Shown here piece by piece: positions 12,753 through 26,584 of a DNA stretch of 64,000 nt. Source of the DNA: an uncultured Eubacteriales bacterium (GTDB lineage Bacteria > Bacillota > Clostridia > Lachnospirales > Lachnospiraceae); NCBI GenBank assembly GCA_900316755.1, contig ONED01000005.1:33210-97209 (forward strand), given 5' to 3'. The notes beneath the pieces were generated by a model, which was not told the DNA's origin, did not search any database, and saw only the letters and a list, made by a program, of their open reading frames with translations. Made by a program: the position numbers and the translations under genes. The first letter of the stretch is position 1, and every line of letters starts with the position of its first letter.

Positions 12753-12823
12753 GCGGGTGTAGTTCAATGGTAGAACACCAGCCTTCCAAGCTGGATACGT
12801 GGGTTCGATTCCCATCACCCGCT
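12753..12823 (+). tRNA. tRNA-Gly (anticodon TCC)
   Basis: A full cloverleaf can be drawn: acceptor GCGGGTG/CACCCGC, D arm GTTC-AATGGTA-GAAC, anticodon arm CCAGC-CTTCCAA-GCTGG with anticodon TCC, and T arm GTGGG-TTCGATT-CCCAT. The discriminator is T, the CCA end is not encoded, and a run of Ts follows directly (12823-12828). A possible promoter upstream is TTGACA (12687) and TATAAT (12713), but the 20-nt spacer is long. Confidence 0.95.
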
Positions 12824-21203: not shown

Positions 21204-21232
21204 TTGACAAGGCAGAAAATAAGAGCTACAAT
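21204..21232 (+). promoter_or_regulatory. Sigma-A promoter of the sulfur amino acid operon
   Basis: TTGACA (21204-21209), 17-nt spacer, TACAAT (21227-21232). Transcription would start near 21239, about 45 nt before the leader ORF. This is one of the best promoter matches in the window. Confidence 0.85.
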
Positions 21233-21284
21233 GCTATCAACCTACTAAAAAAGTGGGTATTATCGAAGGGAAGGAGAACAGGTC

Positions 21285-21404
21285 ATGAAGAAGTTTGATT
21301 TGACTGCAAACACGATGATGGAGATGTGTATGTGCATGTGCTGCATGTGCATGGATTTTTGTGTGCAGAATTCCGATAAGTTCTCCATCTCAGAGATTGC
21401 GTAA
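21285..21404 (+). CDS. Met/Cys-rich leader peptide, 39 residues
   Basis: ATG 21285 has aaggag 8 nt upstream and the ORF stops at TAA 21402-21404. Residues 11-26 contain seven Met and six Cys (core MEMCMCMCCMCMDFC), far above chance. It lies between a strong promoter and an intrinsic terminator, upstream of genes for methionine-type uptake and cysteine synthesis. This is the layout of ribosome-mediated attenuation: the ribosome would stall on Met/Cys codons when charged tRNA is scarce. A separate metal-binding role for the peptide cannot be excluded. It is too short for most gene callers. Confidence 0.8.
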   Translation: MKKFDLTANTMMEMCMCMCCMCMDFCVQNSDKFSISEIA

Positions 21405-21493
21405 GACATCACACTTAGCCTAGGAAAGTAGGGTGCCAGATTTCATTGCTTTGAACCGGGAAACTTTATCGAGAGTCTCCCGGTTTATTTTTA
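21317..21493 (+). promoter_or_regulatory. Putative transcription attenuator with competing hairpins
   Basis: Four segments can be paired by hand. Segment 1 (21317-21324, gatggaga) pairs with 2' (21382-21389, tctccatc). Segment 2 (21374-21386, cgataagttctcc) pairs with 3 (21459-21471, ggaaactttatcg) over 12 bp with one bulge per side. Segment 21454-21461 pairs with 21478-21485 to form the terminator. A ribosome stalled on the Met/Cys codons (21324-21362) would cover segment 1, free segment 2 to pair with 3, and so disrupt the terminator. The folding is by eye; no energies were computed. Confidence 0.6.
21454..21493 (+). terminator. Intrinsic terminator ahead of metQ
   Basis: aaccggga (21454-21461) pairs perfectly with tcccggtt (21478-21485), followed by a T-rich tract tttattttta. 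It lies between the leader peptide and metQ, 22 nt before the metQ start, so it must be read through for operon expression. Confidence 0.85.
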
Positions 21494-21514
21494 TGACAGG
21501 AGGAAAGAAAACAT

Positions 21515-22384
21515 ATGAAAAAAATAATTTCACTTTTATTGATTACAGCATTAACAATTACAGCAGCATTTTCTCTGACCGCTTGCGGCGGCAGTGAAGG
21601 AAAGAGTTCGGATAAGATTACGATTGCCATTCCGAATGACACGACGAATGAAGCGAGAGCACTTTTGCTTCTGGAGGATTTGGGATACATCAAACTGAAA
21701 GATGGCGCCGGCATTACAGCGACTATTCTGGATGTAGAAGAGAATCCTAACAACATTGAATTCAAAGAAGTGGAAGCGGCACAGCTTCCGAATGTATTGA
21801 AGGACGTGGATTACGCGGTGATAAATTCCAACTATGCGATTGAGGCAAAACTGAACCCGGCAAAGGATGCACTTGGCATTGAAGGTTCTTCTTCTGCATA
21901 CGGAAATATTCTTGCAGTAAAAGAGGGAAATGAAGATTCTGATATTATCAAAGCGCTTGTGGCAGCACTGGAAAGTCAGAAGGTAGCTGATTTTATTGCA
22001 TCAGAATATGACGGCGCAGTGGTGTCTGTAGTGGATAATCCGACGGATGGTTATGATTCTACTGTAGATTATGCGGCACTGGCAGGGAAGAAGGTGTCTG
22101 TTGCAGCTTCTCCGACTCCGCATGCAGAGATTCTCGAGGTGGTAAAGGAGATTTTGGCCCAAAAAGATATTACACTTGAGATAAAGGAATTCACGGATTA
22201 TGTGCAGCCGAATAACGTGGTGGAAAGCGGAGAAATCGACGCCAACTACTTCCAGCACACACCATATCTGGATGATTTTAATAAGGAAAATGGAACCCAC
22301 ATCGTTTCGGTTGCCGCCATCCATGTAGAACCGCTTGGTATCTATGGCGGAAAACAGACATCATTAGATGCGATTCAAAAATAA
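21515..22384 (+). CDS. metQ: MetQ/NlpA-type substrate-binding lipoprotein with circularly permuted domain order
   Basis: 289 residues. Lipoprotein signal with lipobox LTAC (Cys24). Residues about 35-170 (ITIAIPNDTTNEARALLLLE, GYIKLKDGAGITAT, VEAAQLPNVLKDVDYAVIN) correspond to the C-terminal half of ordinary MetQ. Residues about 190-288 (VSVAASPTPHAEILEVV, KEFTDYVQPNNVVESGEIDA, NYFQHTPYLDDFN, VEPLGIYGGKQTSLDAIQ) correspond to the N-terminal half. In usual MetQ proteins the PHAEIL part comes first and the IPNDPTN part follows. The break falls at the hinge between SLDEL and the A-IPND strand. All binding motifs are kept, so it should still bind methionine or a related amino acid and deliver it to MetNI. 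First gene of the metQ-metN-metI-cysK operon. Confidence 0.9.
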   Translation: MKKIISLLLITALTITAAFSLTACGGSEGKSSDKITIAIPNDTTNEARALLLLEDLGYIKLKDGAGITATILDVEENPNNIEFKEVEAAQLPNVLKDVDYAVINSNYAIEAKLNPAKDALGIEGSSSAYGNILAVKEGNEDSDIIKALVAALESQKVADFIASEYDGAVVSVVDNPTDGYDSTVDYAALAGKKVSVAASPTPHAEILEVVKEILAQKDITLEIKEFTDYVQPNNVVESGEIDANYFQHTPYLDDFNKENGTHIVSVAAIHVEPLGIYGGKQTSLDAIQK

Positions 22385-22399
22385 ACGACGGAGATTTGT

Positions 22400-23182
22400 A
22401 TGATTGAGATAAAAAATGTATGTAAAACATTCCAGACGGCTGATGGCTTGGTGGAGGCGCTGAAAAATGTATCCCTGACGATTCCGGATGGCGATATCTT
22501 TGGAATTATCGGCATGAGTGGTGCGGGAAAGAGCACCCTCGTGCGATGTATCAATATGTTGGAGAGACCGGATGGAGGCACCGTTGAGATAGACGGTGTG
22601 GATTTATCGAAGCTGTCTGATGCAGAACTTCGGAAGGTTCGTCGGGAGACCACCATGATTTTTCAGGGATTTAATCTTCTTATGCAGCGAAACTGTTTGA
22701 AGAATGTGTGTTTTCCCTTGGAGCTCGCCGGAAAAAGCAAGCCGGAAGCAAAAAGGAGGGCGCTGGAGCTATTGGAACTGGTAGGGCTTGGCGACAAGGC
22801 AAAAGCCTACCCGGCGCAGTTATCCGGAGGGCAGCAGCAGAGAGTTGCCATTGCAAGGGCTTTGGCGACAGAGCCAAAGGTGTTGCTTTGTGACGAGGCA
22901 ACCAGTGCTCTTGACCCGACTACGACCAACTCCATTCTGGAACTGATACGCAGTATCAATGAGAAGCTTGGAATTACGGTGGTCATGATTACGCATCAGA
23001 TGAGCGTGGTGGAAAGCATCTGCAGGCATGTTGCAATTTTAGATAACGGTGAGGTCGTGGAGCAGGGCAAGGTGGCAGAGGTGTTTTCGCATCCAAAATC
23101 CGCGGCTGCACGCCGCATGGTGTTCCCGACAGGGTATTCCGATCCGTCACATGTAGAGGAGGTGGAAAGTCATGTTTCATAA
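22400..23182 (+). CDS. metN: Methionine-type ABC transporter ATP-binding protein lacking the NIL domain
   Basis: 260 residues. ABC ATPase: Walker A GMSGAGKST (38-46), Q-loop IFQGFNLL, signature LSGGQQQR (141-148), Walker B VLLCDEATSALD (161-172) and switch His in ITHQMSVV. It energises uptake of the MetQ ligand through MetI. Typical MetN is about 340 residues and ends in an ACT-like NIL domain that binds methionine and shuts the transporter. Here the protein ends shortly after the ATPase core (PTGYSDPSHVEEVESHVS), so that domain is missing. The end overlaps the metI start by 11 bp, so no hidden continuation exists in this frame. Confidence 0.92.
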   Translation: MIEIKNVCKTFQTADGLVEALKNVSLTIPDGDIFGIIGMSGAGKSTLVRCINMLERPDGGTVEIDGVDLSKLSDAELRKVRRETTMIFQGFNLLMQRNCLKNVCFPLELAGKSKPEAKRRALELLELVGLGDKAKAYPAQLSGGQQQRVAIARALATEPKVLLCDEATSALDPTTTNSILELIRSINEKLGITVVMITHQMSVVESICRHVAILDNGEVVEQGKVAEVFSHPKSAAARRMVFPTGYSDPSHVEEVESHVS

Positions 23183-23876
23183 CCTATTTTCTTCAGAGGC
23201 ACTCATAGAGGCATGGGAGATTATTAAGACCCAGTTTCCGCTTGCTACATGGGAAACCATTTATGTGACGATTTTGGCGACAGTATTTGCGATTGTTATC
23301 GGATTGCCCCTGGGAGTGCTTTTGGTAGTCGGAGAAAAAGACGGCGTCCTGCCCTTGCCAAAATGGTTTATGCATACATTGAATGTCATCATCAATCTAC
23401 TGCGTTCCGTACCGTTTTTGATTTTGATGATACTGGTGTTCCCGCTGACCCGTGCAATTGTAGGGACCGTGGTGGGAACCGTAGCTTCGATTGTGCCACT
23501 TGTGATTGCGGCGTTTCCTTTTGTGGCAAGGCTTGCAGAAAGCAGCCTGCGGGAACTCAATCCAAACATTATTGAGATGGCACAGAGCATGGGAGCTTCT
23601 CCCGTACAGATTATTGTGAAGGTAATGATACCGGAAAGCATTCCTTCCCTGATTTCCAATGCAACCATTGCCATTACCACCATTCTCGGGTACTCGGCAA
23701 TGAGTGGAATTATCGGTGGCGGCGGTCTTGGGAAGATTGCGATTAATTACGGCTATTACCGATATAAGTACTTAATTATGCTGGCGGCGGTGATTTTGTT
23801 AATCCTGCTGGTACAAATTTTTCAAAGTATAGGGACCCATTTGGCTGCCAGAACAGACAAAAGATTAAAAAAATAA
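23172..23876 (+). CDS. metI: Methionine-type ABC transporter permease
   Basis: 234 residues with five predicted transmembrane helices and the EAA coupling loop LRELNPNIIEMAQSMGASPVQIIVKVMIP. A Gly-rich GIIGGGGLGKIAINYGYYRYK stretch is typical of MetI. It starts inside the end of metN (11-bp overlap), so the two are translationally coupled; gaggaggtgg is the RBS. It forms the channel for the MetQ ligand in the cytoplasmic membrane. Confidence 0.92.
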   Translation: MFHNLFSSEALIEAWEIIKTQFPLATWETIYVTILATVFAIVIGLPLGVLLVVGEKDGVLPLPKWFMHTLNVIINLLRSVPFLILMILVFPLTRAIVGTVVGTVASIVPLVIAAFPFVARLAESSLRELNPNIIEMAQSMGASPVQIIVKVMIPESIPSLISNATIAITTILGYSAMSGIIGGGGLGKIAINYGYYRYKYLIMLAAVILLILLVQIFQSIGTHLAARTDKRLKK

Positions 23877-23900: not shown

Positions 23901-24833
23901 ATGTCTAACATTTTTACATCTGCCGATCAGTTAATCGGTAAAACACCACTTTTGGAGCTTACACACATTGAGAAAGCATTGGATTTGAAAGCAAAGGTTC
24001 TTGCAAAGCTGGAGTATTTTAACCCGGCGGGGTCTGTGAAAGACCGTATTGCAAAGGCAATGATTGATGAGGCTGAAGCTTCCGGAAAACTGAAACCGGG
24101 TTCTGTGATTATTGAGCCGACCTCCGGAAATACCGGTATCGGTCTTGCAGCAGTGGCTGCGGCAAGAGGTTACCGCATTATCATCGTAATGCCGGAAACT
24201 ATGTCCGTGGAGCGCAGACAGCTTATGAAAGCCTATGGTGCCGAACTTGTGTTGACGGAAGGAGCAAAAGGGATGAAGGGTGCCATTGCCAAAGCGAATG
24301 AACTGGCAGAGGAAACACCGAACAGCTTTATCCCGGGACAGTTTGTGAATCCGGCGAACCCGAAGGCTCACAGAGAAACCACCGGACCGGAAATCTATGC
24401 GGATACAGACGGAAAGGTAGACATTTTTGTAGCAGGCGTAGGTACCGGCGGAACGGTAACCGGAGTCGGGGAATATTTGAAATCACAAAATCCGGCTGTG
24501 AAGATAGTCGCAGTGGAACCTGCTTCTTCTGCCGTACTTTCTACCGGCGTCGCAGGAGCACATAAGATTCAGGGAATCGGAGCAGGATTCGTTCCGGATG
24601 TCTTGAATACAGAAGTGTATGATGAAATCATTACCGTCACGAATGAAGATGCGTTTGCAACAGGTAAGCTGATTGGAAAGAGTGAGGGCGTTCTCGTGGG
24701 CATTTCCTCAGGTGCGGCTGCATGGGCGGCAATCGAGCTTGCAAAATGTCCGGAAAATGAAGGAAAAACAATCGTTGCATTGCTTCCGGATACCGGTGAC
24801 AGATATCTGTCTACTCCGCTTTTTGCGGAGTAG
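23901..24833 (+). CDS. cysK: Cysteine synthase (O-acetylserine sulfhydrylase)
   Basis: 310 residues. PLP enzyme that makes cysteine from O-acetylserine and sulfide. PAGSVKDRI holds the Schiff-base Lys47, PTSGNTGIG (73-81) is the substrate loop, and [12 protein letters not shown] plus GISSGAA form the phosphate-binding parts. It is 24 bp after metI and has aaaggagg as RBS. Being in one operon with the MetQNI genes behind a Met/Cys leader links uptake and synthesis of sulfur amino acids. Its 3' end runs into a terminator. Confidence 0.95.
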
Positions 24834-26322: not shown

Positions 26323-26584
26323 CCGTGCAGCCGGGGCGTTAGCGGTGCCTTGTACCTACAATCCGCTATAGTAGGGGTGATGTTGCATGGAGGGCTCTTG
26401 CCTGTGGAGCTGCCCTCTGCAAGTGGCGTAGATGTTTGGGTCTCGCGCGACGGAAATCTATGAACCGTGTCAGGTCGGGAACGAAGCAGCACTAAGTAGA
26501 ACCTTCCGGGTGCCGCGAGGGTGCCTGGGCTGAGTCGGCTACAGAGGTAACGTCCATGGACGGAGTTCGAAATGCAACGCACGG
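26323..26584 (+). ncRNA. ffs: Signal recognition particle RNA (large bacterial type)
   Basis: About 262 nt. The ends pair (ccgtgc 26323-26328 with gcacgg 26579-26584). The 5' part has the Alu-domain pattern (gccggggcgttagcggtgcc). The S-domain tip with the Ffh-binding loop ggtcgggaacgaagcagc lies at 26473-26490. It forms the SRP core with Ffh for membrane targeting of nascent proteins. The large form with an Alu domain is typical of Bacilli and Clostridia. Confidence 0.93.

Follow-up and report, generated by a model that had tools for sequence, protein, structure and literature searches.

Transcription of the metQNI-cysK operon described here is very probably controlled by ribosome-mediated attenuation, exerted by a short leader ORF upstream of metQ in which Met and Cys codons are concentrated. 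Judged by their sequences, the genes behind this leader serve Met transport and Cys synthesis, and the operon would most likely be turned on by a shortage of either Met or Cys. Comparison of genomes indicates that other gut clostridia have similar arrangements ahead of genes for sulfur amino acids. Throughout, the window is the whole stretch of DNA analyzed, 64,000 nucleotides (64 kb) in length, and coordinates count from its first letter.

Anatomy of the leader region

The promoter, leader, candidate switch elements and genes are placed in the window as follows.

21204-21232, + strand: promoter TTGACA-17 nt-TACAAT (consensus scan, 11/12)
21240-21258, + strand: inverted repeat ACCTACT-N5-AGTGGGT resembling an operator, placed where transcription is expected to begin (half-site matches 13/14)
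21271-21276, + strand: ribosome binding site AAGGAG, 8 nt 5' of the ATG (sequence)
21285-21404, + strand: leader peptide ORF, 39 codons, MKKFDLTANTMMEMCMCMCCMCMDFCVQNSDKFSISEIA (translation; ortholog in sister species G592/L297)
21315-21362, + strand: sensor codons 11-26, 7 Met + 6 Cys = 13
21317-21324, + strand: segment 1, GATGGAGA, within the sensor codons (8/8 complementary to 21382-21389)
21373-21386, + strand: antiterminator 5' strand, CCGATAAGTTCTCC (aligned relatives have TTCCGATA.GTTCTCC or a near variant of it)
21382-21389, + strand: segment 2, the competitor, TCTCCATC, partner of segment 1, overlapping the antiterminator strand
21452-21487, + strand: predicted intrinsic terminator stem-loop, followed by TTTATTTTT (-18.8 kcal/mol by script; consensus structure of 16 aligned sequences)
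21459-21473, + strand: antiterminator 3' strand, within the 5' half of the terminator (folding, alignment of relatives)
21515-22384, + strand: metQ, methionine-binding lipoprotein family, circularly permuted
22400-23182, + strand: metN, ABC ATPase
23172-23876, + strand: metI, ABC permease
23901-24833, + strand: cysK, cysteine synthase (TIGR01139, over its cut-off)

The earlier note on this DNA had described a strong promoter and a 39-codon ORF with a good ribosome binding site and 13 Met or Cys codons among codons 11-26. Both descriptions were confirmed, the former by consensus scan, in which the promoter is near-consensus, and the latter by counting. The ORF lies between the promoter and the first gene, metQ, and the genes follow in the order metQ-metN-metI-cysK directly 3' of the leader and terminator. 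Codons for Met and Cys, the amino acids handled by the operon, are enriched in the leader above chance: among 442 short SD-bearing ORFs on both strands of the 64 kb, it stands out with 11 Met/Cys in 12 codons, against 6 for the runner-up and 4 or fewer for the rest.

The MetQ of the window is permuted, with residues 33-172 corresponding to the C-terminal part of an ordinary MetQ and residues about 192-288 to the N-terminal part, and it carries its own signal with a lipobox at the front. When MetQ proteins of the family were compared with it, 91/99 aligned in swapped order and 8/99 colinearly. No NIL domain was found in the window MetN (22400-23182), a domain that is present in the MetN of G293 (L170); feedback by internal Met may accordingly be missing.

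The stretch 21239-21495 folds better than its shuffles (z -3.46), and the pairing of 21317-21324 with 21382-21389 put forward earlier is one of exact complements (8/8). The terminator claimed at 21454-21493 before metQ was recovered as a stem at 21452-21487 (-18.8 kcal/mol) with a T-tract; a simple terminator scan passed over this site, presumably because the stem is interrupted, and returned one site inside the leader ORF versus 0.6 expected. The other proposed pairing, 21374-21386 with 21459-21471, held in part. Both strands are largely conserved in relatives, but the helix is imperfect, running at about 21373-21386:21459-21473 with bulges, and taken alone it does not rise above shuffles in the window (p 0.26). 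When the 3' arm is excluded and the run is assumed to be covered, both the window and the sister species fold the antiterminator (21373-21386:21459-21473 in the window), and with a ribosome assumed at the stop codon both fold the terminator.

We infer the mechanism of the window attenuator by analogy with known attenuators. RNA polymerase would start at about 21239, and the 39-codon leader would be translated behind it. Were charged elongator tRNA-Met or tRNA-Cys short, the ribosome would stall among codons 11-26 and break the segment 1:2 pairing, freeing 21373-21386 to pair with 21459-21473; formation of this antiterminator would preclude the terminator, and metQNI-cysK would be transcribed. 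With both amino acids plentiful, the ribosome would reach the stop codon and disturb the antiterminator, the terminator at 21452-21487 would form and transcription would end. An OR gate is expected because Met and Cys codons alternate in the sensor run; within the attenuation reading, we consider it reasonably likely that a shortage of either Met or Cys suffices.

Conservation and recurrence of the leader

A sister species with the same genus label (G592) has the sensor run MMEMCMCTCCMCMAFC, and a named record, 'Tyzzerella sp.' (L297), carries the same leader. Relative to the window, its six Cys codons show four synonymous and zero non-synonymous changes, and 6/7 Met codons are kept, one having become Thr; the leader peptide diverges more outside the sensor run. 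MetQ was matched in 3/10 genomes of the genus, the window's own among them. The earlier note had made its reading depend on conservation of the ORF and its paired segments in relatives, and relatives do retain the Met/Cys codons as well as the paired segments. As to the covarying stems it had also suggested looking for, the outcome was divided between two groups of relatives: a chosen group of seven loci covaries, and the covariation score of the antiterminator in the window's own group of 16 sequences is unremarkable, with 141/500 shuffles as high.

The seven-locus alignment (A1) comprises 7/10 related loci chosen after their pairing had been seen, with L123, L146 and L159 left out. Its RNAalifold consensus contains the antiterminator, and another two main helices fall within the latter half of the ORF. 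For the 24/33 predicted pairs that make up the three main helices, 92.3% were kept and 11 changed on both sides, with 0/500 shuffles as high; versions slid along the alignment gave 44.4% or less, a comparison that favors the structure because it was derived from the same seven sequences. Further pair types were not above shuffles (92/500 as high). The other alignment (A3) joins the window to 15/37 leader loci from closer MetQ relatives (best 80 of at least 566); 17 loci were tried, L300 and L301 were left out (L301 looked different) and the other 20/37 were not included. There, the antiterminator is paired in 85.3% of cells, with 8 changed on both sides (16/500 shuffles as high) and slid versions at 61.4% or less, and the segment 1:2 pairing in 81.1% of cells, with 5 changed on both sides (2/500 shuffles). 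For A3, RNAalifold predicts the terminator together with a hairpin within the run, the antiterminator being absent. Compensatory changes argue for the antiterminator in the chosen seven-locus group, and the support in the window's own group is weaker.

The proposal of a Met/Cys-rich leader before a sulfur amino acid operon gained ground from its recurrence before metNIQ, before metQ-first operons and, less often, before Cys/Met PLP-enzyme genes. In the window's family, MetQ was matched in 184/397 genomes, and we took 99 loci from 95 genomes, namely the listed matches holding the MetQ part aligned from about residue 33; weaker matches lie outside the sample. Among short SD-bearing ORFs lying outside longer ORFs, 28 had at least 6 Met/Cys in 12 codons, in 28/99 loci, all upstream on the metQ strand. 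With L098 and L134 added by hand and L179 (score 5) left out, leaders stand upstream in 30/99 loci; the 69/99 loci without one include some having little DNA upstream. Under a looser SD rule the metQ strand had 508 short ORFs and the opposite strand 244, 752 in all. Counts for the metQ strand versus the opposite one were 28 versus 1 at threshold 6 and 25 versus 0 at threshold 7 (Met/Cys in 12 codons), and when 190 residue pairs were ordered by strand difference, Met+Cys came first at thresholds 6 and 7 and tenth at 5. The family leaders stand before metN-I-Q or metQ-first operons; in some of the latter we read the long first ORF as metI fused to metQ, and the metQ ORFs of L146 and L156 have about 280-294 codons.

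Closer relatives of the window MetQ were drawn from named genomes (best 80 of at least 566), mostly MAGs under names such as Lachnospiraceae, Oscillospiraceae, Ruminococcus, Tyzzerella and the like, which suggests that the window comes from a Lachnospiraceae-like gut clostridium. For the 79 of these 80 with enough upstream DNA, a leader at threshold 6 was present in 37, and the opposite strand gave 0, with a maximum of 5. Across the class, MetN was matched in 51/196 genomes. Of the 30 loci drawn from these, 29 come from families other than that of the window; leaders were found in 4/29 (families f4, f9, f20 and f50), the opposite strand scoring 5 or less, and in one locus, L195, the best start has no SD by the script's rule. 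Cys/Met PLP-enzyme loci scored at least 6 in 4/30 cases, including L271, where the leader lies 607 nt upstream and its target is doubtful; one opposite-strand ORF scored 7 (L247). The genome from which the PLP-enzyme query came, G139, also has a leader. G080 has one leader before msrA and another before a family-3 solute-binding protein; msrA was rejected as a general target, since a leader stood at 1/25 msrA loci, the query's own. Searching 397 genomes with the peptide itself (query P0001) returned 27 genomes at E <=0.1, mostly by chance, of which G139 and G272 were accepted on context beside the window's own. The pattern MCMCM occurred at 29 places in 26/397 genomes versus 6 control matches, and 6/29 were accepted as leaders by context.

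Switch elements recur with the leaders. A terminator was found in 30/31 leaders (the 30 family loci and the window), 26 at first and 4 of the other 5 once the search passed the assumed gene start; at L123, where the script gave none, CCGGG-7 nt-CCCGG and a T-run can be seen by eye. A terminator alone is not specific, because a terminator-like site also occurs in 28/67 loci without a leader, where 220 nt were covered, a shorter stretch than that searched for leaders. Pairing between the stretch behind the run and the 5' arm of the terminator beat shuffles (p 0.05 or less) in 12/30 loci, with 1.5 expected, and did not reach p 0.05 in 18/30. In L189, one of the 12, the antiterminator strand overlaps the run. 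In the seven-locus group this strand is situated a good distance 5' of the stop codon, so that how a finishing ribosome would block antitermination there is something we infer.

A second conserved short ORF, with the motif LVRxN(F/Y/C)RFGRM and often ending in Cys, stands just before metY-like genes and metQ in relatives. We saw it in L282 (own genome, contig C37), L276, L279, L280, L283, L285 and L286 and also among L293-L372; RFGRM occurs in a short upstream ORF at 13/79 close MetQ loci (best 80 of at least 566). In some relatives this ORF is placed behind the Met/Cys attenuator. It is possibly a second leader or an arrest peptide.

Alternative explanations

Attenuation in response to both amino acids has to be weighed against a variant in which this attenuator responds in essence to Met only, the Cys codons being carried along by RNA structure or recent ancestry. 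The operon encodes a methionine-type transporter, and metN-first leaders are Met-dominated, with Cys at 36/149 sensor residues (19 loci). In metQ-first leaders, however, Cys accounts for 40/93 (12 loci including the window; Mann-Whitney p 0.0012, for groups set after the data were seen and loci that are related), and in the four PLP-enzyme leaders for 16/29, shares that agree with a sensor tuned to its operon. In addition, all six Cys codons are kept in the sister species, four through synonymous change, and cysK belongs to the operon. Sensing of Met by itself, compatible as it is with attenuation, therefore appears unlikely. Whether the leaders form a class-wide attenuator family in Clostridia is an evenly balanced question: each leader would read the charging of tRNA-Met and tRNA-Cys as an OR gate, with a Met:Cys ratio tuned to the operon (Met-rich before metNIQ, Cys-richer before metQ-first or transsulfuration-type operons), and would replace T-box/S-box control there.

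Other readings place the control, or the function of the ORF, elsewhere. A DNA-binding protein at 21240-21258 could be the main control, the leader region adding only a constitutive terminator. The inverted repeat at this position has the top score in the 64 kb (13/14; next best 11) and looks like the putative operator of a shared sulfur regulator, and because it is there, the 5' hairpin predicted at 21240-21258 need not be an RNA element. Seven related metQ/metY loci each carry one or two upstream sites of the same form (ACCTAYT-N5-ARTAGGT, scoring at least 11), which overlap the -35 in some of them. Such control would nevertheless leave the Met/Cys codons and the conserved pairings unexplained, and as the main control it is very unlikely; both layers can coexist. 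We also find it highly improbable that the ORF encodes a functional thiol/thioether peptide, for example to bind a soft metal such as Cu(I) or to sense oxidation, the terminator then serving only to set it apart from metQ. Soft-metal binding is conceivable for motifs like MCMCMCCMCM, and one G080 leader precedes msrA, but such an ORF occurs at only that msrA locus (1/25, the query's own); length, flanks and residue order vary by locus, whereas the position, the terminator and the presence of Met genes behind it recur.

For Firmicutes, accounts of how genes for sulfur amino acids are controlled usually invoke T-boxes, S-boxes and DNA-binding regulators. Rfam gave no match in the window leader, with neither the T-box nor the S-box (SAM-I) model, and none in 13 leader loci (L276 of the sister species and 12/30 from the family). 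Among 68/69 leaderless metQ loci (all but L179), a T-box lay directly upstream only at the second metQ of G115 (L093), with AUG at what we take to be the specifier position. Both metQ genes of G115 are permuted, and the other (L091/L283) stands behind an RFGRM ORF without a Met/Cys leader. The T-boxes of L094, L101 and L176 sit elsewhere in their loci. The window's genome has one SAM-I match, on contig C87 in front of a gene we take for metK, together with five T-box matches, of which three exceed the cut-off; all lie on other contigs. Only Rfam results are used for these T-box and S-box statements, because a motif regex scan of the 99 loci missed the L093 T-box and is unreliable. Elsewhere in the window, Rfam matched a large SRP RNA at 26323-26584 and a tRNA at 12753-12823, both ordinary. 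T-boxes and S-boxes control Met/Cys genes in other Firmicutes (PMC2940859), and the G115 case lies close at hand; with Rfam blank for the window leader and the 13 others, a T-box, S-box or other known riboswitch is extremely unlikely here.

Relation to known leaders and riboswitches

No Met/Cys leader attenuator in Clostridia was recognised in searches of open-access literature, subscription journals being mostly outside their scope. A recurrent peptide-based sensor would give gut clostridia a further layer of control over the uptake of Met and the synthesis of Cys, and such leaders would escape RNA-family libraries because they have no single conserved fold. They would offer a natural test of how a ribosome integrates two amino acid shortages on one short ORF, and their readable sensor codons may help infer the substrates of uncertain transporters.

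The trp, his and leu attenuators of Proteobacteria consist of a promoter, a leader ORF rich in the regulated residues and a competing antiterminator and terminator. The window leader has the same layout, its antiterminator and terminator being predicted, and stands apart in having two sulfur-containing amino acids and in belonging to another phylum. Mycobacterial polycysteine ORFs were reportedly presented as Cys leaders by Canestrari in 2020. T-box and S-box (SAM-I) elements also control genes of the same kinds by premature termination, and the T-box also reads tRNA charging; unlike them, the leader region has no Rfam match. Cys T-boxes govern cysKE and the ubiG operon (Met-to-Cys conversion) of C. 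perfringens (PMC2940859), so that if other clostridia carry a leader at genes of this kind, it would amount to a swap of sensor.

Among peptide leaders of Firmicutes, those for His before hisS/hisZ in bacilli (PMC2965389) and for Leu before branched-chain genes in S. aureus (PMC5794164) are reported as regular leader peptides too, but for other amino acids and genes. Actinobacteria have Cys leader ORFs before cys operons and cbs, which resemble the window leader as codon-run peptides before sulfur genes; they differ in being Cys only, with runs near the stop codon and no conserved terminator hairpins, and Rho was suggested (PMC1262725). The earlier note had proposed that the leader senses charged tRNA-Met and tRNA-Cys together, which is supported as to anatomy and conservation; its claim of novelty needs correction in view of Streptomyces lividans metL, a leader with Met and Cys codons proposed as an attenuator before metNIQ (PMC8079986). 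Like the window leader, metL is a short ORF (...RCMCRRMCAF) before a methionine importer operon. Unlike it, metL belongs to an actinobacterium and has a leaderless start and no typical intrinsic terminator, and its authors stress Met and Thr at one locus with no comparative test, as far as the excerpted account goes (PMC8079986). Likened by its published description, the peptides being short and low in complexity, S. lividans metL is the nearest precedent.
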